Of a stretch of 40,338 nucleotides of DNA, positions 2,746-34,171 are shown in pieces; the stretch's first letter is position 1; each line of letters starts with the position of its first letter. The stretch spans positions 1 through 40,338 of the forward strand of contig CANQPA010000008.1 in assembly GCA_947625635.1 (NCBI GenBank), read 5' to 3'. The translations under genes were made by a program, and so were the position numbers. The notes below the pieces were generated by a model, which was not told the origin of the DNA, searched no databases, and saw only the letters and a list, made by a program, of their open reading frames with translations. The stretch is from an uncultured Bacilli bacterium (GTDB taxonomy: Bacteria > Bacillota_I > Bacilli_A > RF39 > UBA660).

Positions 2746-3031
2746 TACTATCTACCTCACTTAGAATATAATTCTCACATAACTTTCTGGTATAACTATC
2801 ATACCCTTTGGATAAATATGCATCACATACTTCCGCTCTTTCTACTTTAGGTATGTCTCTATTCCAAATAATACTCTTTTGAGCAAGTTTAGTAGTTGAT
2901 TCTAATAATTTATTCTGATCGTTAAACCAAGTTCCCACTTTCCAAAATCCACCTAATAAAGTTACTAGGACTGATGCAAGTAAGGTTAGGTACTTCCAGT
3001 TCTTTTCTAGGTCTTTCATGAATTTATCCAT
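2708..3031 (-). CDS. Membrane-anchored lysis-cassette protein
   Basis: N-terminal TM YLTLLASVLVTLLGGFWKVGTWF; adjacent to holin. Confidence 0.45.
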   Translation of the reverse strand: MDKFMKDLEKNWKYLTLLASVLVTLLGGFWKVGTWFNDQNKLLESTTKLAQKSIIWNRDIPKVERAEVCDAYLSKGYDSYTRKLCENYILSEVDSNERNTTENIQTN

Positions 3032-3720
3032 TATTCTTCTCCTAATTCTGTAACTGTTACTATGTTAGTTAAGTTTGGAAACATTTTTTGTACTCTTTCT
3101 TTTTGTGTTTCGTCTTTAACTATAAATTTACAATTTTCTGGCACGTTAGACATCATACCACTAAACAGGATAACCTTAGTAAAATCTATATTTCTCATAT
3201 CCAATTCTTGTAAGCTTTTACAACTATAAAAACAAGAACTAAAATTAACACCAGTGTTACCATTTTTCCAACTACTCAAATCAATTTTTGTTAATTTACT
3301 ACACATATAAAACATTTGGTTTACATCTTCAACTTTTTCCATAGTCCAACTACTCAAATCAAGTTGTTGTAATGAATTACAACTCATAAACATACCATTC
3401 ATGTTAGTAACTAAATCTGTTTTCCAATTTTTTAAATCTAATTGTTGTAATTTACTACAGCTATAGAACATATTTTGCATATTGGTTAAATTAGAAGTAT
3501 CTAAATTTGTTACTTCTTCGTCTAATTCTGTACCAGTATAATTTTGAAAACTAATATATCTAGGTGCATATTTACTACCACCACTTATATCTTTTACTTT
3601 AGGTACTAAAGAAGTAAAGGTTTCTTCATCAGTTGCCTCTACTCCTTTTTCTTTTAGATTATTAACTAAATCTTGTTTATCTGTTTTTAATTGATTTAAT
3701 TGTTGCTCAATTGTTGCCAT
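3031..3720 (-). CDS. BspA-like leucine-rich repeat (DUF285-type) tail/receptor-binding protein
   Basis: Repeats LQQLDLKNWKTDLVTNMNGMFMSCNSLQQLDLSSWTMEKVEDVNQMFYMCSKLTKIDLSSW. Confidence 0.75.
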   Translation of the reverse strand: MATIEQQLNQLKTDKQDLVNNLKEKGVEATDEETFTSLVPKVKDISGGSKYAPRYISFQNYTGTELDEEVTNLDTSNLTNMQNMFYSCSKLQQLDLKNWKTDLVTNMNGMFMSCNSLQQLDLSSWTMEKVEDVNQMFYMCSKLTKIDLSSWKNGNTGVNFSSCFYSCKSLQELDMRNIDFTKVILFSGMMSNVPENCKFIVKDETQKERVQKMFPNLTNIVTVTELGEE

Positions 3721-5951: not shown

Positions 5952-8900
5952 CTACCTCCTATTGTACACTCTATCAGCATATACATCATATAAAGCATAT
6001 CCGCTCTTTACTTGTGAATCTATCTTTTTATAATTCCTAGATATAGGCTTTTTTAATGCTTTTGATTTTGCAACATTGTAAGCATAGTCAACTATTCCAT
6101 TTATTACTTCTGCTTTTTCGTCTTCTTGTAATTCATTTTTATACAGATAATTACTATTTAGTTTTTTAACATTCTTTTCAACTATATCTCCTGATATCTT
6201 TTGAAATTGGGAACGCTCTTTAGCGTTCAATGTCTTACTATAAGTTTTTCCATCTATTGTCATTTGTACATCATATGGTGCTACTTTAGGCATAATCTTT
6301 TTATCCCCAGTTTTTTGATAAACTCTATATATTTCTTTAGCACTTTTACTCTCTTTACCTTTATTCATGTTAGCCGGATTTAGGAACACATTAAAAGGAT
6401 TAACATCCCCACCATACTTTTTAATCTCTCGACCTAAAGTATCACGTGTAGGTGCTAAATCCTTACTTAATGTTGGTATTTTTGCTTTAATTGAATTTAT
6501 TGCACTTTGTACTGGTTCTCCCTTTTCAAATGTTGTTCTCTGCGTTGTATCTACCATATCAGTTATTTGTTTAAATAGAGTTGGTGTTGCTCTTGCTGGT
6601 AAGTCCATTATTTGTTCTAATAGTCCTGCTGGTATTCCTTCATAATTACTTAATACGTCTTGTAATCCACTCATAAAAGATTGTTCTAATATCAAGTTGA
6701 ATGGTACATCTAAAGTAGAAGTAATTTGTTCTAATAAATTTGCCTTCTCATTTTTATTATTTACTAAATCTGATGTTATAGAAAAAGGTGCTGCTATTGG
6801 TTGAGCCCAGTCATAAGTAAAACTCTTATCTCCTATTTTTATAGAATATGATGTAATTCCTAAAGTGTTTTTCATAAAGTTTGCTAAATCTTTATCATCA
6901 TCACTTTTGCCACCTGTTAGTTTTGTCTTTGCTAGTGCATAGCCTAATACGTATAACAAACTACCTGCTGTTGCTTTACCAAAGTTTTGTACAAATTGAT
7001 GTTGCTTTTGTGCTGTATATTGTCCATTACTTAATGATTTTTTAAACTTACTTGCATCTACTGTTAAAGTTTTTACTAAACCTACTGGAGAATAATCTAC
7101 AATTGCTTTTGTTAAGTTAGCTGGTGTTTTTGCAAATGGTATTATGATATCTCCTAAACCATAACCTTTTATATTGATGTTATTTAGCCCACGTCTTATG
7201 TTTAAAACAAATTGAGTATATTTATTATTATCTTGCCAAGTTCTTTGAAGTGCTTCGTTAGTTGCTATATCTATCATATCTTGAGTAACTTCTGTTGTGT
7301 TATTTAAAACCAATTGGTTATTAATTGAATTAACAAATGCTGATTCATAAAATGGTCTATCACCTGCATCTAAACAAAAAGATAAGACTTTGTCTATGTT
7401 ATTAAGCTTATTAGATAAATAATTTCTTGCTTTTGCACCTTTACCTGTATGGTTTTCGTTAAAACTTTTACCTTGTCCTATTTCAAATCTGTTTCCTTGT
7501 ATGTTTCTTGTATCTATTCCTAGTTTAAAGTCATTATAACTTTCATATAAACCTTTACCTGCTCCCTTAACTAATTTAGATATTTTTGGTGTTCCAGTTG
7601 TTCTTACTCCAGTCTTTTTAGATATTAATTTATCCATTCCAGCCGCAAAAGTATCTCCTACCATATTAACTGGTGCTATTAGGGCATTACCCACAACATT
7701 TCTTATTTGAGTTTTAGGATTAAATAACATTGATATACGCATCCATGCTTTTATTCCTGCTCCTCTTGAAGGTGGTAATTTATTTTGCATCATTGCTTGA
7801 ATTTGAGCAAGTTTTACTTTTTTGTCATATCCATCTTCCATGTTTTGTACTTCATTCATAGTGTCTACAATGAATTTAGTTTCGCTTGGAGTTAAATCGA
7901 ATTTATCTCTATTTGCATCTATCCATTCTTTACTTTGGTCTTTTATATAAACTTCATAAGCATCTGATAATTCTTGTTGTGCATATTTAACCATTCCCTC
8001 TGGTGTTAGTCTAGAAAGTAAGTTATACATTTGAACTGTTTGTCCACTTTTAGTACCTATCTCACGCATTTTTTTAGCAACCTGTACCATTGAGTTATAA
8101 TCTCCAGCATCTTGATATCTTTTAAGTAAAATCCATCCTTCTGCTACATCTGATGAATCAGCATTTGTACTATCTTTTGCATACCAGTTTGTTATCTCAT
8201 CCACCATATTTCCATTATCAAGTCTTTCTAGTGCTTTATTCATACTTTCTTTATTAGATACTGTTTCATAGAATCTTATATCTTCTTGAGATAAATTAGA
8301 TCTATTTTCTTCTGTAATGAACTGACTTTTTTCAGTTATATTTTTATAAAATTTACTTTCTTTTATATCATCTGGTAAATTAATACTATTTATTATATCG
8401 GTACTTGTTGTTTGTGGTGTTAACTCTTTATAATTGTTGTTTTCTGATAAAGATAATTTTGGTAAATTACTTATTTTTCTTTTATTAAAATCTTCTATGT
8501 TTGTCATGTTATCATTATCATTTATTTTCATAGTATATTCATAACCATTCTCTTGATATGTTATTTGTGCTTCATGATTTGATAACTTTTTAATTGTTCC
8601 ATCTTCTAATATCTTTTCTGTCTTCCTTACTAAGTCTGTAACTACATCTGCTCCTCTTTTAACAATTTTATCTGATACATTGGTATCAATGTTAACGTCA
8701 TCATATATTATATTTAGTCCTGAGTTATTAATTTTTTTCATGCTGTCTTTACTTACCATAGTATATATATTGTCTTTACTATTTGCTATTTTTTCATGTA
8801 ATTGTTCTTCTGGAGTTACTATTACATTACTATTCCAATCTGTTTTTTCATCTGCTTGATAAAAAGTTTCTACACCATTAGCCTGTCTATAAATAGGTGC

Positions 8901-11900
8901 TCCATCTTTAGTATATCCTGTTATTGGTGCATCTTTTAATCTAACATTAGTGTTTTTACCTGCTTCTGACAATGCTACTATACTATCATTTTGTTTTTGT
9001 TCATTATCTGAAAGGACATTGTATTGATTAGAATTATTTGCTATAGAATATTTTGTATCATTTTTTGGAAAATAACCAAACTCATTTAAATCATCTCCAG
9101 CAAATTGTATATCTTTTGCCTTAACTTTTAATTGTATTACTTTACCTTTTCCATCTAATTGACTTTCATTATGATGCTCAGCATAACTCTTAGATAAGGT
9201 TACCCAATCGCCTTTATTTATTTTATCTCCTGTTGTTGCACGGTATATAATTATATCTGCGTTTGGTTTATTTCTTATTTTATTTAAAACATCCATAGTT
9301 TCTGTTAAATATTTTCCCTCACTTGGTGAATAATATTCTGGATGTTCATACATATCTTCTGGCATTGGAGTTTCTACGTTTTGATTAGTTAAATTATCTG
9401 CTGTTATACCAGTTTCAGTAGGTCTATGATACATCATATAATCTGTATCTGACTTTTTATTGTTTTCTTCTAAATAAATAGTATTAGTGATATCTTTTGC
9501 ATTATCAAAGATATATTTACCTATATTATCTCCTAGTTGTCTTGTAGAATTAACTTCACTATACACATCAAATTGATTTACAACATCATTATTTTTATCT
9601 AACATATTTATACGTATATCACCATTATCTTTTTTAAAGAACTCTATTTTTGTACTATCTTGTAAATCGTCATATCTTTTTGCATTTTCATCATAAGAAA
9701 AAGAGGTGTTACCCTCTGTTAGTGAATATTTTGTGTTTTCTTGCATATCACTATTATTAGATGATGTATCCAATTTGACATTTTTGTTGTTTTGTGGTAT
9801 GTTATTTGCAAGAAATGACTGAATCAATGCGGTTTCATTTTTATTTAATGTACCGTTTTCAGTCATTTTTTTGTATTCTGATAAAGTTTTTATATCTGTA
9901 ATATTATAGAAAGTTGGTTTTCCATTTGAAATTCCCTCGTTAATTTTTCCAATTAAATCAATGTTGCCATATTTGAATCTGGTATAGTAATAATTCCAAC
10001 CATCTTTTGCAAAGTTATGATATTTATGTGAATTATCATTAGGTACTATATTTTTATTTATTTTTTTACCTATTTTTATAGCATTTTCTAATTCTGCTGA
10101 TAATCTGTATTTAACTCTCTTTTTAGTATTAGATATAATTTCTTGAGGATTAGTATATTCCTTTATACTTCTTTTTGGCAATTCTATATTTTTGTTATTA
10201 ATTATAATTCCATCTTTAAATTTGTCTGATAATACTTTTTTTGCTAATCGTCTTTGTTGTTCTAAAGTTAAATTATTAAATTGTTTTTGTTCTATATCAA
10301 TATTAACAAATTTATTACCGTTATTATCACTTTTTATACTATATGATACACCTTTAACACTTTCATTCTGTTTGTTCTTTATTTGACTTTCGTTTGCTTT
10401 ATCAAACAAGTATAAAGCCTGTTCTGTTAGTTTTCTTTCTTTACTACCTGCTGTTGTAATATTATATAAATGTTTTATAAAGTCATGTATCTTTGTGAAA
10501 AGATTATAATTTTTGGCATGAAGTTTATTTACAAACTCTGGTTTAGTAAATCCATAATCTCCCATTAAATCTGATGTTAATTCATTCATTATATTAGCAT
10601 TTGTTCCTTCATATGTTTTTTGGACTTCTGCTAATTTTCGATTGTATTCTCCTCTTTCTTTTGCTAATTCAAACAATGTTTCTTGTAGTTGTTTATATTG
10701 TTTTGTATTTTCAACTAAATGTGTTGTTTCGTGTCCTAGAAGTTTATTAAATGCTTTCTCTGAATCTAGATTAATAGTTACTGTTCCATTTTCTTCAAAA
10801 CCATTTATAGTTCCACTTTTACCCCTTTCTCTTAATTGTTGATATCTATCTTGTAACTCGTTATTAGTAACTAAGTTATAATCACGTCTAGTATATTCTG
10901 ATAAATTAGCAATAAGGTCTACTAGATCATGTGTTTCTTTGGAATTGTTTAGTATATTCTTATTATTGGCTTGTTGATATACTCTTTGTTTTTGAATACT
11001 ATCTGTATTCTTTATTTCTTGATAGAATTTTTGTTGAGAATTATTATCATTAAGTTGTTGATAACGATTATCATTTGTTAAAGAGTTTTCCACAATACCT
11101 GTGGAATTAGGACTTACTACTGGACTTTGTACTCTTTCTTTTGGTGTCAAATTAAATGCATCTACTTGATTTGCTATTTGGTTATTAGTTGTATTGTTGT
11201 TATTAAAAACACCTAATACACTTGAACCTACTGGTCTTGTAAATACACCACCAACTGCTCCTCCAAAAGCACCACCTATTCCTGATTGTAGTATTCTTTC
11301 TTGATCTTGTGAATTATCTCTTTTGATTCCTGATTGTTGTGCTGCTCTTTTCTCTCCCTCTATACTTCTCCATTCTTGTGCTGATTCTTCTAAACCTTCA
11401 CTTACTATATTTGTTAAATATGAACCACCTGTACTTTTTGCCCAGTTTTTTAGTGTTTCTAAACCATATTTTTTAACTAACTTATCTCCTAAAAGTTGAC
11501 GTACTTTTGATGCTTGACCTAAAGTAATTAAATCTACAATACTTTCTCCTGCTTCTATTAAAGCATTCTCTGTACCTACTTGTTTTGCTTCTTTTCTCGC
11601 AATAGATTCTGGTACTCCCATTTCAAGTAATGCCTGATACTCATATCCTGATTCTAATTGATAAGTAAATTCTGTTTGTCCTTTAGTATAACCAGCACCT
11701 CCTAAGACTTTAGCACCTGTTTTCATTCCGGGTACTATACCGCCAGTACCTGCTGTTGCAAACCCTACTATTCCACCACCTATTGCACCTAAAGTTCCAC
11801 CTACACCAGCATTCTTGAGTCCGCTCATTGTACCTAATACTTGATTAGGTGTATTCTGTGTATTTTGATTAATAAGATTATTACTTGTGGCTATGTCTTG

Positions 11901-12833
11901 ATTAAACTTACTATATTTATCAACTTGCTCTTTTATTTTGTCATAGTTGTTTTTTTGACCATTCATTTTTTTAAAACTTTCTAGTCCTAATTGAGTATTA
12001 AGGTATCCTAGTTTTAAATCTTCTGGAATGTCTGTTATTGGATCAATTAAATTTTCATTTATTCCTTTTAAATTTTCTCTAACTTCTCCTAAACTTCCTT
12101 TTAGTCCTGCACCACCATATCTTACTTCACTTATTTTTTTATTATATTCATCTTGTTGTCTTTGTAAGTCTTCTTGATACTCTTTTCTTTCTTTTTTAGT
12201 AAGATTAGTTGTATCTAAGTCTAATTGTTTTTCTATCTTTAATTTAGAATCATTACCTTTAAATCCTAGTTTTTTTGCCTCTTCGTATTCTTTTTTTGCT
12301 TGTTCTGGAGTAGTTATTCTGTTTTCGTTATCTAGTTCAGTATATTTTCCTTTTTGTTCATCATAATAAAAATATTTTCCATTTTTAGAATATATTTTAT
12401 AATTACTTTTGTTTTTATAATCCCAATATCTATAATCACCATACTTTTTACCAGTATCTGTATATCCCTCATTGTTTGTTACATTAGTTGTATTTTTATT
12501 TAAATCATCTATCATTTGTTGTGTAGTCATTTGTTTTGAAACATTCTTTTTTTCGTTACTTTTAAATTGCATATCTGGTAAAGAAGTAACTATACCTGCT
12601 GTTACATTAGATTGTGGTTGTGCAATTATTTGGGGTTTGATTTTTCCTTTTTTAACATCTTGCAAACTATATGTTTGGTTTCCTATTGCTTCCATAGGTT
12701 TAACTGATACATTGGCTTTTTGTGTAATTATTTGAGGCTTTACTATTCCTTTTTTAACATCTTGTAAGCTATGGATTTGTCCTTGTTGTTCTACATTAAC
12801 TAATTGTTTTTTATCCTTTTTCTTTTTAGCCAT
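5952..12833 (-). CDS. Giant 2293-aa polyvalent virion protein (glycine-zipper, zincin HETTH, ART-like domain, membrane-active C-terminus)
   Basis: NKLLGHETTHLVEN; IIIYRATTGDKINKGDWVTLSKSYAEHH...DDLNEFGYFP; NPKTQIRNVVGNALIAPVNMVGD...DRPFYESAFVNSI; recurring YSI/YSL linkers. Confidence 0.7.
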   Translation of the reverse strand: MAKKKKDKKQLVNVEQQGQIHSLQDVKKGIVKPQIITQKANVSVKPMEAIGNQTYSLQDVKKGKIKPQIIAQPQSNVTAGIVTSLPDMQFKSNEKKNVSKQMTTQQMIDDLNKNTTNVTNNEGYTDTGKKYGDYRYWDYKNKSNYKIYSKNGKYFYYDEQKGKYTELDNENRITTPEQAKKEYEEAKKLGFKGNDSKLKIEKQLDLDTTNLTKKERKEYQEDLQRQQDEYNKKISEVRYGGAGLKGSLGEVRENLKGINENLIDPITDIPEDLKLGYLNTQLGLESFKKMNGQKNNYDKIKEQVDKYSKFNQDIATSNNLINQNTQNTPNQVLGTMSGLKNAGVGGTLGAIGGGIVGFATAGTGGIVPGMKTGAKVLGGAGYTKGQTEFTYQLESGYEYQALLEMGVPESIARKEAKQVGTENALIEAGESIVDLITLGQASKVRQLLGDKLVKKYGLETLKNWAKSTGGSYLTNIVSEGLEESAQEWRSIEGEKRAAQQSGIKRDNSQDQERILQSGIGGAFGGAVGGVFTRPVGSSVLGVFNNNNTTNNQIANQVDAFNLTPKERVQSPVVSPNSTGIVENSLTNDNRYQQLNDNNSQQKFYQEIKNTDSIQKQRVYQQANNKNILNNSKETHDLVDLIANLSEYTRRDYNLVTNNELQDRYQQLRERGKSGTINGFEENGTVTINLDSEKAFNKLLGHETTHLVENTKQYKQLQETLFELAKERGEYNRKLAEVQKTYEGTNANIMNELTSDLMGDYGFTKPEFVNKLHAKNYNLFTKIHDFIKHLYNITTAGSKERKLTEQALYLFDKANESQIKNKQNESVKGVSYSIKSDNNGNKFVNIDIEQKQFNNLTLEQQRRLAKKVLSDKFKDGIIINNKNIELPKRSIKEYTNPQEIISNTKKRVKYRLSAELENAIKIGKKINKNIVPNDNSHKYHNFAKDGWNYYYTRFKYGNIDLIGKINEGISNGKPTFYNITDIKTLSEYKKMTENGTLNKNETALIQSFLANNIPQNNKNVKLDTSSNNSDMQENTKYSLTEGNTSFSYDENAKRYDDLQDSTKIEFFKKDNGDIRINMLDKNNDVVNQFDVYSEVNSTRQLGDNIGKYIFDNAKDITNTIYLEENNKKSDTDYMMYHRPTETGITADNLTNQNVETPMPEDMYEHPEYYSPSEGKYLTETMDVLNKIRNKPNADIIIYRATTGDKINKGDWVTLSKSYAEHHNESQLDGKGKVIQLKVKAKDIQFAGDDLNEFGYFPKNDTKYSIANNSNQYNVLSDNEQKQNDSIVALSEAGKNTNVRLKDAPITGYTKDGAPIYRQANGVETFYQADEKTDWNSNVIVTPEEQLHEKIANSKDNIYTMVSKDSMKKINNSGLNIIYDDVNIDTNVSDKIVKRGADVVTDLVRKTEKILEDGTIKKLSNHEAQITYQENGYEYTMKINDNDNMTNIEDFNKRKISNLPKLSLSENNNYKELTPQTTSTDIINSINLPDDIKESKFYKNITEKSQFITEENRSNLSQEDIRFYETVSNKESMNKALERLDNGNMVDEITNWYAKDSTNADSSDVAEGWILLKRYQDAGDYNSMVQVAKKMREIGTKSGQTVQMYNLLSRLTPEGMVKYAQQELSDAYEVYIKDQSKEWIDANRDKFDLTPSETKFIVDTMNEVQNMEDGYDKKVKLAQIQAMMQNKLPPSRGAGIKAWMRISMLFNPKTQIRNVVGNALIAPVNMVGDTFAAGMDKLISKKTGVRTTGTPKISKLVKGAGKGLYESYNDFKLGIDTRNIQGNRFEIGQGKSFNENHTGKGAKARNYLSNKLNNIDKVLSFCLDAGDRPFYESAFVNSINNQLVLNNTTEVTQDMIDIATNEALQRTWQDNNKYTQFVLNIRRGLNNINIKGYGLGDIIIPFAKTPANLTKAIVDYSPVGLVKTLTVDASKFKKSLSNGQYTAQKQHQFVQNFGKATAGSLLYVLGYALAKTKLTGGKSDDDKDLANFMKNTLGITSYSIKIGDKSFTYDWAQPIAAPFSITSDLVNNKNEKANLLEQITSTLDVPFNLILEQSFMSGLQDVLSNYEGIPAGLLEQIMDLPARATPTLFKQITDMVDTTQRTTFEKGEPVQSAINSIKAKIPTLSKDLAPTRDTLGREIKKYGGDVNPFNVFLNPANMNKGKESKSAKEIYRVYQKTGDKKIMPKVAPYDVQMTIDGKTYSKTLNAKERSQFQKISGDIVEKNVKKLNSNYLYKNELQEDEKAEVINGIVDYAYNVAKSKALKKPISRNYKKIDSQVKSGYALYDVYADRVYNRR

Positions 12834-12846
12834 AAGTATTACCTCC

Positions 12847-13794
12847 TTATTTCTTTTTACCCATATCTATATATTCGTTTGCTGCTCCATCCCATACGTA
12901 ATAATGTCCTCCATATTCCCATACGGTTTGATTTGCTACATTAACTCCGGCTGCATTATTATAATTTCCATATAAATCTCCTACTGTCTTTCCACTTGAT
13001 TTTAATCTTTTAACGTTTCCTGCACTATCTTTTCCTAAGTTATTTGGTTGATAACCATTACTAAATGTTCCATATTCTGCATTTTTTGCTTGCCTTCCTG
13101 TATAAGGATTATAACCTACTTTCATCTTATAAGTTTGTCCATCTGATGTTTGGTAAATTATATTACCGTTACCATCACCTTCTTGTGCTACTATTGTTCC
13201 ATATGCTATAGCCCCTGTTGCGTAACCACTCCCGGAAGACCTCCCAGAACTTCCACTACTTGCATAACTTCTTGCTGCGTTTTGTCTTTCAAGTGCCATT
13301 TGTTCATTAAATTGTCTTACGCTCTCTTCATATTGTTTTTGTTGCATTTCTCTTTCCCATGCTGCTTGACGTTGTGCTAATAAGTTTGTAATATAATCTG
13401 CCTCTATTTGTGCATTTGCACTTGTTAAGCCACTATTATATGCGTTATTAACGTCTGTTCTTCTACGTGCTACATCACTTAATGCATTTGCTTCTGCTGT
13501 GTTAAGGTCATTTAAACTACGTTGTAGACTGTTCTGTCTTAACATCTCATATTGTGCACCTATTCCACTATTAGAACGTCCTGAGTTTACTAAATACTCA
13601 TGAAAGTTCTTAGCTGCTACTTGATTTTGCACATTAGCACTATCCTTTTTCTTATAATATGTAGGTTTTATTGTTTTTTCTTCTGCATCTAAATCTGATA
13701 ATGATTGGTTTCTTTGTTTCTCTAAGTCAGCCATTGCTGATTGTTTCTGTGCTTCTTTTAATCTATTTAAATCTGCTTCATAATCAAAATTCAT
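12847..13794 (-). CDS. Internal virion / coiled-coil structural protein
   Basis: Long Q/A/E-rich helical region then Ser/Gly linker SSGSSGRSSGSGYA; lies between the giant protein and the tail gene. Confidence 0.4.
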   Translation of the reverse strand: MNFDYEADLNRLKEAQKQSAMADLEKQRNQSLSDLDAEEKTIKPTYYKKKDSANVQNQVAAKNFHEYLVNSGRSNSGIGAQYEMLRQNSLQRSLNDLNTAEANALSDVARRRTDVNNAYNSGLTSANAQIEADYITNLLAQRQAAWEREMQQKQYEESVRQFNEQMALERQNAARSYASSGSSGRSSGSGYATGAIAYGTIVAQEGDGNGNIIYQTSDGQTYKMKVGYNPYTGRQAKNAEYGTFSNGYQPNNLGKDSAGNVKRLKSSGKTVGDLYGNYNNAAGVNVANQTVWEYGGHYYVWDGAANEYIDMGKKK

Positions 13795-14581: not shown

Positions 14582-14920
14582 TTAATACTTGAAGAATATA
14601 TCTCCATCATCTCCACTAGATGGTAAAGATGAACCGCTTGTTATTCCTAAATTCGTTTTTGAAGTGTTTTTGTTATCAAACTCATTATTACATTTTCTTG
14701 AGTCAGTTAATCTTGTATCTGTATCTTCTATTGCTTTTGTTAGGTAATTCTTTAACTCTGGTATCAATGTTTCATTAATAAACTTTTTTATATCTACTCC
14801 TGCTTTATCAAAAAGTTGTTGTAAGTCATCTGCATGCATTGTTCCTGGTGTTGGATGACTATCTAATTTCTGTATGTTTCTTACATCTTCACTCATTTCT
14901 GTTAAATTTACTTTTTCCAT
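14582..14920 (-). CDS. Small structural protein, function unknown
   Basis: In operon; ATG overlaps preceding stop region; no family recognised. Confidence 0.4.
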   Translation of the reverse strand: MEKVNLTEMSEDVRNIQKLDSHPTPGTMHADDLQQLFDKAGVDIKKFINETLIPELKNYLTKAIEDTDTRLTDSRKCNNEFDNKNTSKTNLGITSGSSLPSSGDDGDIFFKY

Positions 14921-16770
14921 TACTTACTTTCACCTCCATATTCTGTTTTAAGTGCTAACTCCAATACTGTTGCATCACTTTCTTCATTATTATCCAAAAG
15001 TATTTTTAAATTGGTAAACTTCTTAGCTTTTATCTTTAATCTAAATGGTTGTGGATTCTGTTTTATATTAAAACTAAAGTCATCAAAGTTTAAATCATCA
15101 AAATACGTCATTTTATATTCTATTCGCTTTGTTATAGGTGTTGTGTTGCGATTGGATTCATATCCTATCTCTAAACTAGATTTCATTTGAGGTTGAAGTA
15201 ATACCCATAAACGATACATTGTTTTACGTAAATATGGTGCCTCAAAATCATAAAAGTTCATATCCCAATGTGCTTTAATTGTTTCATTATAGAAAGTTCT
15301 ACAGTCTTTATCAAACCTAAATATATCTCCGTCTGGTGTTGATATTATTACATTATTATTTAATTTAACTATGTTATCAATTTCTACTGGTAAAACTACT
15401 TTAGAATAAGTATCATTCATGTAATTATAAATGTATATTTTTTCCCCTATTGCTATCCAAAGTTGATTATCACATTGTAAATCTAATGTTTTTGCCTTTG
15501 TTAAGTCTAAATCTACTAAATCTAGTTTTATTTTTTGTGAAATATCTTTCATATTACGCTCATCACGTACGTTAGTAGATTTCCACCTTATAATAGAATC
15601 TTTATCAATTGTTACCGGATCATTATCTATTACTTGTCCTTGATTAAATGCTATATTCCCATGTACTTCATTTAAAGGAAATGTCGCTGGACTTGTTACT
15701 GTTGTCGAATATTCTTCTCCAGTGTTTAAATCCATTGTATCTAGAGTCATATAATATGCTTCTGGCTTGTTTGTAGTAATTAATAATCTATCATAATGCC
15801 TACGTAAATCAGTTACACTAAAGTTACTAGCACCTATATCTATTTGGTTTACTGCTGGAAAATATTCAACTGATGGTACATTATTTGCTACTGCTGAGTA
15901 TCTTATTCTATTTGGTTCTTCTTCGTTTCCATATAAAAATACTCTTGTATCTACTCCTCCACCAAAAATTATTCCTGCTTTCATTTTTTCTATAAAACTT
16001 CTATCTCCATTACCTTTAGTCCAGTAAACGTCTATTGTATCCATCCCTTCACTCTTTGGCTTTCCATCATTACCAACAAAAGTTATTTTTCCTTCGGTTT
16101 TATCTACTGTATATTGGTCTGGTGTTAATTCTCTGCCTTCTACTATAACTTTATCAACAGAATCTATATTTTTTTCTGCTAATTGTAAATCTAAAGAGAC
16201 ACCTACATAATTACCATCACTATTAAAAGTTTGATGCTTTTTACCGGTAAGTAAGTTAATATCTTCAAATGGTGTACCACTACCATCAAAGGAAGTTGAT
16301 ATCATTACCTTGGGTATGTATCCTGCTACGTCTTGAAAAGTTTCTCCATCCCATGATTTATATTCATTTCCATTTAAAATATATACTTTTTTATCAAATA
16401 CAAAAAAAGAGGTAGGAGCATCACTTATACTTCCTACATTAATTACATTTTTTCCAAAATCTTTATATATTTCATTCTCTGCTATAGCATATAAATAACC
16501 AGCAGCTGCAACTAATAAATAATTAGTTCCTTTTAATTTTGCTTCAAACATTCCTTGTATTTTTGCTGAGCTATCTCGTTTTGTAAATTTTAAAATGTGA
16601 CGATATCCATACATTTTTTTTAGTTTATAATCGTCTGTTATATAAAAATTAGTCATATTTCCACTTTCACCTAATTTAATTTGTGTATCTCCTGTGTTAG
16701 ATAAATTAAGTCCTAAAAACTTATCTATACATAAAGGCGTTACTGGAGTTGTTTTTCTTATACTAGCCAT
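14920..16770 (-). CDS. Beta-propeller-like tail nozzle/stabilisation protein
   Basis: 616 aa with repeated beta-blade-like motifs (YLLVAAAGYLYAIAEN, KVYILNGNEYKSWDG, NQLWIAIGEKIYIYNYMNDTY); position next to adaptor. Confidence 0.5.
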   Translation of the reverse strand: MASIRKTTPVTPLCIDKFLGLNLSNTGDTQIKLGESGNMTNFYITDDYKLKKMYGYRHILKFTKRDSSAKIQGMFEAKLKGTNYLLVAAAGYLYAIAENEIYKDFGKNVINVGSISDAPTSFFVFDKKVYILNGNEYKSWDGETFQDVAGYIPKVMISTSFDGSGTPFEDINLLTGKKHQTFNSDGNYVGVSLDLQLAEKNIDSVDKVIVEGRELTPDQYTVDKTEGKITFVGNDGKPKSEGMDTIDVYWTKGNGDRSFIEKMKAGIIFGGGVDTRVFLYGNEEEPNRIRYSAVANNVPSVEYFPAVNQIDIGASNFSVTDLRRHYDRLLITTNKPEAYYMTLDTMDLNTGEEYSTTVTSPATFPLNEVHGNIAFNQGQVIDNDPVTIDKDSIIRWKSTNVRDERNMKDISQKIKLDLVDLDLTKAKTLDLQCDNQLWIAIGEKIYIYNYMNDTYSKVVLPVEIDNIVKLNNNVIISTPDGDIFRFDKDCRTFYNETIKAHWDMNFYDFEAPYLRKTMYRLWVLLQPQMKSSLEIGYESNRNTTPITKRIEYKMTYFDDLNFDDFSFNIKQNPQPFRLKIKAKKFTNLKILLDNNEESDATVLELALKTEYGGESK

Positions 16771-19599: not shown

Positions 19600-21429
19600 C
19601 TATAAATCCATAGTTTGTGCTACTTGTGGTTGAGGCTCTTCTATGATATTACCTTGTTCCGGTTGAACATTAGGCATTGATTGTGGTATCTGTTTTTGTT
19701 GCTCTGTACCTTCATCAAGTGCACCCATCATTCTTAATATTTCCATTTCCATATCTTCTGGTTTCATAGACTCTAATTGTTGTTGTATCTCTGGTGGTAA
19801 ACCTTCTTTAAATTTAGCCATTAGATTCCATAATGCTTGATGGTACATATCTTGACCTTCTAATTCTTTTATAAGTTCTTTCTTTTGTGGTATTACCTCA
19901 TCTGGTATACGTTTCAAGTAATCAATAAACTCTATTCTTCCTGCTGCTAGTAAGTTATCTAGTGTTTGTAGACTTGCTATTTCACTAAAGTATGATGCAT
20001 TTCCTACATCTGCTTTAATATGTAACCACATACCTTTTAACTCACTAAAATCAAAAGTTTCTACTGTCCTATTCTCATTTTCCTCTAAGACAACTGGTCT
20101 TACTCCATAATTAGTTGCTATCATATCTAGAATAATTCGTCCACAGTCCTCTACAAACTCGTAAAAGTTTGCTCTTATATTTTCTAGTGGTACTGCGTTA
20201 GACTTTTGCACTGCTATTATTGCTGAGGCATTCTCCATTGTAATATTTCCTAATGAGGCATCTCCTACACCTAGAGTCTCTTTGGTATATTGCATTGCTA
20301 ACTCTATAGCATTCATTATCTGTGCACTCATTGTTGATGGTTCTAAGTATCCTGCTACGTTTTTAATGCTTTCTCCTGGTTGTAAGGCTGTAATTGGTAT
20401 TGCTGCTCCTATCTCATTAGTCCATCCAGCAACCTTGTCTGCGTTATATACTGCTGTAGGAAAAGCTGTTAACATTAAATGATATATTACCATTGCAAAC
20501 ATCTTATTTATTGCTATTTGGTTAGGTATAATGCCTGTAGTCTCTGCTCTACCATGATAACTTCCTTTAATTGTTTCCCAGTTATTAAATGCTACCGGAT
20601 AATAATCATATCCTGTTGCTTTGTGCTTATATATAAAAACATTCCTTACTGATTTATTAGCATATACTTTTCCATTTTCTTTGTAATATTTAATTATGTA
20701 TAATGCTTTACCATATTCATCCGCTTCTATTTCTACTTTTCCACTATCTCCTGCTTGATAATTAGTATCACTATCTTCTTGAATCTCATCTGTTTTCTTT
20801 TTGTTATTCCTTTTGTATTCTTCTTGTAAGTTTTTTACTAAATCACGACCGACTATTATTATGTAAGGTTGTTTTTCTACTATTCTTACATTTGGATTAC
20901 CAAACATGACATTTGTTGAATCTATTATTTCAGCATTTATTGTACCTTCTACGTTTTCAAAACCTTTGTAAGTTTTAAACGGTTTCTTGTCTCCATCAAA
21001 ATACCAGTGTAAACAATAATCTCCAGTATCAAAGCCATCTCCTAATAATTCTCTAGAACGATTATCAAAGTTGATACTCTCTAATACGTTTTTAATCTCT
21101 GCATTTGCTAAATCTGATTTATGGATAGAGTCTTGCATTTGTTCTGACTCATCATCTGCTCTATATTCCATTGGCTGTACATTAATTGCTATATTACTTG
21201 ATTTTAAAGATGCTATCTTAAATTGTTTTACTCTTTTGATAATATTGAATACCGGTTTTGGTAATCCTTCTCCACCTACGTTTCTCCATTGGTCTCCACT
21301 AGAAAATGCTATGTTAGTATCTATTACGTCATAATAGTTCTTACCAGTGCCGTCTTTATCATATAACTTCTCATTGTATGTTTTACCTGCTTCATATAGT
21401 TGCCAGTCTTTTGTGATTTCACTATTCAT
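19600..21429 (-). CDS. Portal protein
   Basis: 609 aa downstream of TerL; NIAFSSGDQWRNVGGEGLPKPVFNIIKRVKQFKIASL...YEFVEDCGRIILDMI. Confidence 0.75.
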   Translation of the reverse strand: MNSEITKDWQLYEAGKTYNEKLYDKDGTGKNYYDVIDTNIAFSSGDQWRNVGGEGLPKPVFNIIKRVKQFKIASLKSSNIAINVQPMEYRADDESEQMQDSIHKSDLANAEIKNVLESINFDNRSRELLGDGFDTGDYCLHWYFDGDKKPFKTYKGFENVEGTINAEIIDSTNVMFGNPNVRIVEKQPYIIIVGRDLVKNLQEEYKRNNKKKTDEIQEDSDTNYQAGDSGKVEIEADEYGKALYIIKYYKENGKVYANKSVRNVFIYKHKATGYDYYPVAFNNWETIKGSYHGRAETTGIIPNQIAINKMFAMVIYHLMLTAFPTAVYNADKVAGWTNEIGAAIPITALQPGESIKNVAGYLEPSTMSAQIMNAIELAMQYTKETLGVGDASLGNITMENASAIIAVQKSNAVPLENIRANFYEFVEDCGRIILDMIATNYGVRPVVLEENENRTVETFDFSELKGMWLHIKADVGNASYFSEIASLQTLDNLLAAGRIEFIDYLKRIPDEVIPQKKELIKELEGQDMYHQALWNLMAKFKEGLPPEIQQQLESMKPEDMEMEILRMMGALDEGTEQQKQIPQSMPNVQPEQGNIIEEPQPQVAQTMDL

Positions 21430-24474: not shown

Positions 24475-24549
24475 TGGTACAGGATGAAAGAGTCGAACTT
24501 TCACTTGCTCGCGTATCAGACGAGTGTGTTACCATTACACCAATCCTGT
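24475..24549 (-). tRNA. tRNA-Ile (anticodon GAT), CCA encoded
   Basis: ACAGGAT-TG-GTGT-AATGGTA-ACAC-A-CTCGT-CTGATAC-GCGAG-CAAGT-GAAAG-TTCGACT-CTTTC-ATCCTGT-A-CCA: full cloverleaf. Confidence 0.85.
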
Positions 24550-32791: not shown

Positions 32792-33362
32792 TTTTACCTC
32801 CTATATCACTTAATTTTTTTATTATTTTACCTGCTTTTGACATTGGTAAATCTTCTATTTTATCTATTTTGTTTACCTCTAATAATTTTTTCATTGTAGC
32901 ACCTTTATAACGTGCTTTAATAATTGCTAATTGTTTTTCTGTTGCTTTTTTCTCAGTATCTTTTCCTACAGTAGAATCAAACATATCATTTTCAACAATA
33001 TCAAATGCTGCCATATATAAATATCTTCTTGAATATGTCTCTACTCCTCCTAATGCTTGAATCTCATTACATCCCTTTAGATTTATCTCTTTTAGTGGAC
33101 TTGAATACTCAATTGTTGAATTAATATTATTTGTATCTGTTATCGTAAGTATTGCAAAATCATTTGTAAAAGTTATTCTAGTAAATAAACCCACTTCGTT
33201 ACATAAGTTAATCAATGTTGGTAGGAAATCTGATAACTCATAATATTTAAAGTTTGAAAATTTATTTTCGCCACTTTTTTTTAAATTTGCTTGTAAAAGT
33301 TTTTGTTTTACTACTTGTATTTTTTCATAAATGTTTGCTTCGTAAATATTTGTTGTTGTCAT
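32778..33362 (-). CDS. erf: ERF-family single-strand annealing protein
   Basis: SNFKYYELSDFLPTLINLCNEVGLFTRITF...CNEIQALGGVETYSRRYLYMAAFDI. Confidence 0.85.
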   Translation of the reverse strand: MTTTNIYEANIYEKIQVVKQKLLQANLKKSGENKFSNFKYYELSDFLPTLINLCNEVGLFTRITFTNDFAILTITDTNNINSTIEYSSPLKEINLKGCNEIQALGGVETYSRRYLYMAAFDIVENDMFDSTVGKDTEKKATEKQLAIIKARYKGATMKKLLEVNKIDKIEDLPMSKAGKIIKKLSDIGGKNGTN

Positions 33363-34171
33363 TATTCAGAACCCCCTAGTAGTCCTGTTATGTCAAATAT
33401 TGAATTACTACCACTTGCTTTAGGTAATTCTCCATTCCATTTTTCTATAAATTTTTCTTTTATGATATTATCTGTTAAAGTTTGTTGTTTTAATTCATTT
33501 GCTTGTTTTTCTGCCTCGGCTTTAACTATTTTCTTTTCTGCTTCTATTTTTTCTTTCTCAAGTTCTTGTTTGGCTGTTAATACTTTTTGTTCTGCTACTT
33601 GTTTCTCTTCTATTGCTTTATCAAAGTCCTTGCTAAATGTAAAATTAGTAATATTAAAGTTATCTACTGTCAAACCATATCTTTTGATTTTACTTTGTAG
33701 ATTTTCCATACACTCGTTACTTACTTGCCCTCTATTAGTAATTAATTCTTCTGCGGTATATTTACTTGTTACCGCTTTAATACTTTCTTGAATGGCTGGT
33801 TGTAATATTATTTCTTCGTATTTTGTTCCAACATTTTTATAAAGATCTGCTGCTTTTTTTGAATTTATTTTATAATTAACTGCAAGTTTCATATTTACAT
33901 CTTGTAAGTCTTTACTAGCACTTGTTGTATCTAATTCTATCTTTTGAACTTGTATATTCATTTTCACTATTTTTTCTATTAAAGGAATTTTTATGTTAAC
34001 TCCTTCATCTTTTTGTACTTGAATTACCTTTCCTAATCTGACTTTAATTCCTACTTCACCACTTTTTATAATTCTGAATGTTCCACTAAATAAAAGTAAA
34101 ACTAAAATCACTGCAATTATAATAAAAACTTTTTTTTGCAAATTTTCTGTGTTTTTAATCTCTTCTATCAT
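33362..34171 (-). CDS. SPFH/prohibitin-family membrane protein
   Basis: TM then GTFRIIKSGEVGIKVRLGKVIQVQKDEGVNIKIPLIEKIVKMNIQVQKIELDTTSASKDLQDVNMKLAVNYKI, long coiled coil. Confidence 0.85.
   Translation of the reverse strand: MIEEIKNTENLQKKVFIIIAVILVLLLFSGTFRIIKSGEVGIKVRLGKVIQVQKDEGVNIKIPLIEKIVKMNIQVQKIELDTTSASKDLQDVNMKLAVNYKINSKKAADLYKNVGTKYEEIILQPAIQESIKAVTSKYTAEELITNRGQVSNECMENLQSKIKRYGLTVDNFNITNFTFSKDFDKAIEEKQVAEQKVLTAKQELEKEKIEAEKKIVKAEAEKQANELKQQTLTDNIIKEKFIEKWNGELPKASGSNSIFDITGLLGGSE

Follow-up and report, generated by a model that had tools for sequence, protein, structure and literature searches.

The window analysed here is the whole 40,338-nucleotide stretch of contig CANQPA010000008.1 from an uncultured Bacilli bacterium of the gut, and the subject is the giant gene at positions 5952-12833. 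The plus strand of this interval is full of stop codons and the coding strand is the minus strand, read from 12833 to 5952. One open frame of 2293 aa was confirmed as the earlier note had described it, and the strand, absent from that note, was added. The product is probably a polyvalent protein that serves a podovirus as internal virion (ejection) protein; it would be packaged in the virion and ejected from it with exchangeable effector cassettes. Packaging and ejection are suggested by the homology of its C-terminal carrier module and by gene position and synteny. The features of the gene are given below in the order of translation.

5952..12833, minus strand: whole gene, polyvalent / internal-virion-type protein of 2293 aa; single uninterrupted open reading frame
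11634..11846, minus strand: glycine-zipper hydrophobic stretch 1, aa 330-400; 7 overlapping GxxxG, hydropathy peak at aa 342-367
11199..11336, minus strand: glycine-zipper stretch 2, aa 500-545; 4 overlapping GxxxG
10452..10949, minus strand: predicted zincin-like metallopeptidase domain, aa 629-794; window-built hidden Markov model (HMM), invariant H/E/H/E, weak PDB profile matches
10719..10733, minus strand: HETTH motif, aa 701-705; sequence and invariant residues
10581..10583, minus strand: predicted third zinc ligand E751 (ELTSD motif, aa 751-755; E751-x3-D755); conservation
9879..10217, minus strand: LPD3-like domain, aa ~873-985; same family as segments matching Pfam LPD3 at 2e-4 and 7e-3, below the cut-off
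9720..9731, minus strand: linker motif KYSL, aa 1035-1038, between the LPD3-like and ART-like cassettes
9492..9695, minus strand: small beta-beta-beta-alpha-alpha module preceding the ART-like domain, aa 1047-1114; AlphaFold predicted local distance difference test (pLDDT) about 85-96
9057..9446, minus strand: domain resembling ADP-ribosyltransferases (ART-like), aa 1130-1259, PHROG 2579 C-terminal family; phrog_2579 E=1.1e-26, pLDDT mostly 90-98
9240..9242, minus strand: invariant R1198 (43/43)
9192..9194, minus strand: invariant S1214 (43/43)
9081..9083, minus strand: invariant E1251 (43/43)
9042..9053, minus strand: linker motif KYSI, aa 1261-1264, immediately following the ART-like domain
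5955..8366, minus strand: carrier module, aa 1490-2293 (~800 aa); hhalign, tblastn, AlphaFold and Foldseek against BFVD

Carrier module and relatives

The full-length protein was scanned against viral and genome contigs and no close relatives were found. Searches of Pfam and NCBIfam with the full-length protein and its segments gave no significant match, and the domain families were therefore built from relatives. Of 145 genomes searched, 7 matched, the window's own included; the C-terminal region was then found to be encoded by 74 contigs of viruses and at 56 loci in genomes. The resulting set comprised 125 distinct proteins. Most are giants, with lengths of about 1-4.1 kaa, and contig ends truncate some of them. 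The carrier module is kept in about 125 relatives and the middle of the protein is variable. Among culturable bacteria, the same module occurs in prophages of Christensenella hongkongensis, Paenibacillus and Cohnella. A partial second carrier copy, 57% identical to aa 1901-2261, was observed elsewhere in this genome, on a different contig (G000:C45:7472-8536; L002, L011), and probably belongs to a second related prophage.

The profile of 85 C-terminal modules was compared by hhalign with 24 cyanophage internal virion proteins, which gave a probability of 98.3 and E=1.3e-14 over 630 collinear columns, and with the 'internal virion protein D' of the autographivirus Desulfovibrio phage ProddE, which gave E=2.8e-16; the controls gave 0.14-0.62. 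The same ProddE protein was reached by tblastn at 8e-5. The AlphaFold model of the module, built with 85 sequences, was mostly helical (pLDDT 87.4, predicted template modelling score 0.79). Foldseek against the viral library BFVD gave 48 matches at E<=1e-3. Among them are entries named 'Internal virion protein' from a Pelagibacter phage, Eyrgjafa, and from the Synechococcus phages S-RIP1, S-CBP3 and S-CBP2, with E between 5e-12 and 2e-10. Judged by these comparisons with their controls, the carrier module is homologous to the internal virion (ejection) proteins of Autographiviridae. The earlier note had placed the gene in the polyvalent class at the position of an ejection protein, and this homology makes the class assignment firmer than could be known when that note was made.

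A weak likeness to designed pentatricopeptide repeats was also seen in the carrier profile at aa ~1535-1625 (E=7e-7), possibly a generic helical-repeat similarity. The membrane-like character assigned earlier to the C-terminal region survived only as a marginal hydropathy peak at aa 1713-1731; no strong peak was found, and the C-terminal module is modelled with confidence as mostly helical. The strongest hydropathy peak of the protein lies at aa 342-367, inside the first glycine-zipper stretch, and the glycine-zipper N-terminal region that had been noted is real, with both GxxxG runs listed above.

Effector cassettes and their exchange

The HETTH motif lies exactly where it had been reported. 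In an alignment of 32 sequences the residues H701, E702, H705 and E751 are invariant, so that the HExxH motif and a downstream acidic third ligand are both conserved, and the window-built HMM matched 56 of the 125 giant relatives. The zincin profile compared with the PDB retrieved mainly real metallopeptidases, each with a weak E-value, and it also matched the HExxH domain of N4 virion RNA polymerase weakly with the residues in register (P=0.0013). The AlphaFold pLDDT of the region was about 80, and Foldseek against the PDB, run with the model that spans the zincin and the ART-like domain, gave no significant match. On the pattern of conserved residues, the identification of a predicted zincin is solid. 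In L022, L105, L110, L112, L116 and L121 the first zincin is followed by a second domain, of the HExQH type.

The block described earlier as a BECR-fold nuclease corresponds to aa 946-982 and lies inside the domain at aa ~873-985. Members of this family match LPD3 (PF18798) at 2e-4 to 0.1, with 13-22 bits compared to the curated cut-off of 27, while the window block itself matched neither PBECR nor MuF_C models. The corresponding slot of the relatives holds LPD3, MuF_C or PBECR3. The block is thus present as had been claimed, with MuF_C and PBECR3 in the same slot of relatives, but it falls in no named PBECR family and, from its profile matches, appears better called LPD3-like. A nuclease role is plausible from its slot-mates.

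The ART-like block of the earlier note (aa 1194-1256, nt 9066-9254) belongs to a domain in which all 43 aligned relatives share R1198, G1208-D1209-W1210, S1214, A1218, E1251 and G1253, and 42 of 42 share H1136. The residue order of R-S-E ARTs (R on strand 1, S/T-x-S on strand 2, E on strand 5) is found in R1198, S1214 and E1251. The IMG/VR scan, for which a diverse alignment served as the query, revealed ART-like relatives in at least 538 viral contig stretches, and by this alignment-based count the domain is a widespread unnamed phage family. In cluster-E mycobacteriophages the family is represented by Bask21 gp133 (PHROG 2579), labelled 'ParB C-terminal domain', which has 33% identity and the same invariant residues; it differs in being a solo protein of 129 aa encoded outside the structural genes. 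The solo gene (L147 2498-3147) overlaps a small helix-turn-helix gene by 4 bases, a toxin-antitoxin-like arrangement.

The N-terminal parts of 49 relatives contained matches to LPD3 (8), ART-PolyVal (7), MuF_C (5) and PBECR3 (3), and single matches to PBECR5, LPD1, LPD23, ADPrib_exo_Tox, DUF3990 and a nucleotidyltransferase. The window gave no match to ART-PolyVal (PF18760), which is of the H-Y-D type. The comparison of two relatives, G022 and L110, revealed mostly 63-90% identity from aa ~280 to ~818, unrelated sequence at aa 819-1208 (16-32% identity), similarity again at once past the break, where L110 carries an additional insert, and 95-100% identity from aa ~1368 to the end. Effector cassettes are exchanged between phages that share a near-identical carrier.

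The linkers near the breaks of this pair read ..DIRYSQ.. / ..VKNSIS.. and ..NTSYSI.., and the window carries KYSL and KYSI beside its cassettes. In zincin-bearing proteins [KR][YF]S[ILMV] is the commonest of the 24 orderings, with 54 occurrences in 18 homology clusters. The motif [KR]YS was also considered as a part of the ART domain and rejected, being found within 28 aa after the domain in only 2 of 75 ART proteins of other phages. It is not claimed as a proven protease site, and it is not cluster-specific to zincin-bearing proteins.

Gene neighbourhood and apparent prophage

The giant gene lies between podoviral head/tail genes and a tail-fibre gene. The whole contig looks like a prophage, with terminase, a P22-type portal and late genes all in one direction, and serine-recombinase-like genes were recognised by eye from the sequence near both contig ends. 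The neighbouring genes that bear on the position of the giant gene are as follows.

12847..13794, minus strand: 315-aa protein whose gene immediately precedes the giant gene, occupying the place of a smaller internal virion protein; homologues upstream in relatives, position compared with S-RIP1 and ProddE
14920..16770, minus strand: tail/head structural protein of 616 aa; similar protein in 84 loci with a giant relative
19600..21429, minus strand: P22-type portal protein; Pfam PF16510 E=5e-12

The order in the window is the 616-aa structural gene, the 315-aa gene and then the giant gene, and the relatives have both genes there too. S-RIP1 and ProddE show tail tubular protein B (or a gene in its place), smaller internal virion proteins, the counterpart of the giant and the tail fibre, and the late-gene order of the window matches T7-type phages. 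The podoviral context and the ejection-protein location proposed in the earlier note agree with the portal, the terminase and this gene order.

Other features of the contig were also observed. A tRNA-Ile(gat) gene is located at 24475-24549 on the minus strand, inside the prophage and upstream of the terminase genes. In the early region, 33362-34171 reads as an SPFH/prohibitin (band-7, HflC-like) membrane protein, which is unusual for a prophage. The tail-fibre region holds a BspA-like leucine-rich repeat protein at 3031-3720, for which a receptor-binding part is possible, and a short collagen-like Gly-X-Y repeat protein at 779-1144 adjoins a recombinase fragment.

Ejection, delivery and the alternatives

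Several unrelated predicted activities (zincin, LPD3-like, ART-like and carrier) stand in one polypeptide, and the gene stands among virion structural genes. Iyer et al. 2017 (PMC5512222) proposed from domain architecture that polyvalent proteins are carried in the virion, injected at infection and cut into working units by their own zincin. The present data fit this scheme, to which the carrier homology adds the delivery part. The C-terminal helical module and the glycine-zipper N-terminus would form the carrier, placing the protein in the virion core and taking it through the tail at infection, and between these parts would stand exchangeable cassettes, here the zincin, the LPD3-like domain and the ART-like domain, whose R, S and E are invariant. 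The protein would be ejected with or ahead of the DNA, the zincin would then cut flexible linkers, perhaps by self-cleavage at the recurring [KR]YS[ILM] sites, and the freed effectors would have their targets in the newly infected cell. The cleavage, the enzymatic activities and the targets are all conjectural, and the host-directed action suggested in the earlier note, that is neutralising defence or remodelling the cell, may be the outcome.

The phage-type polyvalent proteins of the above study share with this protein unrelated enzymatic domains in one polypeptide among virion genes and the zincin plus ART/PBECR/LPD architecture, and the relatives match the same Pfam families. Differences are the carrier, here a named module with homology to the internal virion proteins of autographiviruses, the R-S-E-like pattern of the ART-like domain compared with the H-Y-D type of the published polyvalent ARTs, and the cassette exchange seen here between near-identical phages. 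With the T7-type internal virion protein D (T7 gp16, ProddE, S-RIP1) the gene shares its place before the tail fibre, and with the ProddE and cyanophage proteins its C-terminal module, whereas the extra effector cassettes and the Bacillota host set it apart. The N4 virion RNA polymerase (gp50; PMC12633501), which is itself ejected, has the same layout of a giant protein with N-terminal domain, payload, zincin and large helical C-terminal part; in the window protein there is no RNA polymerase and the zincin precedes the payload.

Several results weigh against the ejection-protein reading. Foldseek gave no significant match of the carrier to solved structures in the PDB, and no sequence similarity was detectable between the carrier and T7 gp16 (P=0.54) or the C-terminal domain of N4 virion RNA polymerase, so neither is supported as a direct carrier homologue by sequence comparison; LPD38 was not supported either. 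The window's own LPD3-like copy matched no Pfam family on its own. The enrichment of the linker motif became smaller after homology clustering, and since the clustered rate is about equal in proteins with and without the zincin, the connection between zincin and linkers is put forward only as a hypothesis. The entire contig comes from a 1.3-Mb metagenome bin with a contamination of 7.8%. The ART fold was likewise not confirmed by profile or fold search: the ART-like profile had no match in the PDB, the comparison with T4 ModA, ModB and a set of ADPrib_exo_Tox domains was not significant (P=0.011-0.36), and no ART appeared among the 50 Foldseek matches listed for a three-domain model, a provisional outcome. 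For this reason 'ART-like' is kept only as a motif-level description; the block claimed earlier is present with its R-S-E-like pattern, but a detectable homology or fold match to known ARTs is not.

That this domain is not an ADP-ribosyltransferase and is some other enzyme using R/S/E (and H1136) as active-site residues has a chance only somewhat short of even. The searches just given, together with the lack of an ART match in Pfam and an R-to-S spacing of just 16 residues, favour such an enzyme, while the order YR-x-S-x-E with the pattern YRA, GDWVTLS, YA and then E resembles R-S-E ARTs, and weak profile alignments place R1198 on the YRG/WRG motif of T4 ModB/ModA.

T7-type phage internal virion proteins form a trans-envelope conduit, and the middle domains might accordingly be maturation or structural modules (e.g. 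a head-maturation protease and accessory folds) in a protein that serves only to conduct DNA. No target is known, ART activity is unproven and LPD3 function is unknown, which would suit this explanation; it is nevertheless unlikely, as the cassettes in the middle are replaced by others beside a carrier that remains 95-100% identical, and they differ in known toxin-type families (ART-PolyVal, PBECR, MuF_C, ADPrib_exo_Tox), and many relatives are without the zincin, which is therefore not needed for assembly. Action in the lysogen, as a moron-like toxin or phage-exclusion factor, is very improbable: the apparent prophage and the solo ART-like protein of Bask21 speak for it, but the gene lies within the co-oriented late structural block and its carrier module is common to internal virion proteins.

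The probable ejection protein described here exemplifies a known class, the polyvalent proteins, now with its carrier identified and with an effector family that is widespread but unannotated; it is not a new kind of system. A bolder and rather doubtful extension is that this family of gut Bacillota podoviral ejection proteins forms a delivery cassette system, in which [KR]YS-type linker borders double as zincin processing sites and one effector, the ART-like R/S/E domain of hundreds of phage contigs, is a widespread unrecognised enzyme family. What is new is the recognition of the delivery part of a polyvalent protein. With a whole family of polyvalent proteins tied to an internal-virion carrier that can be recognised, their delivery acquires a concrete mechanism open to test, and the cassettes swapped in nature between two near-identical phages offer a clean comparison for effector function.

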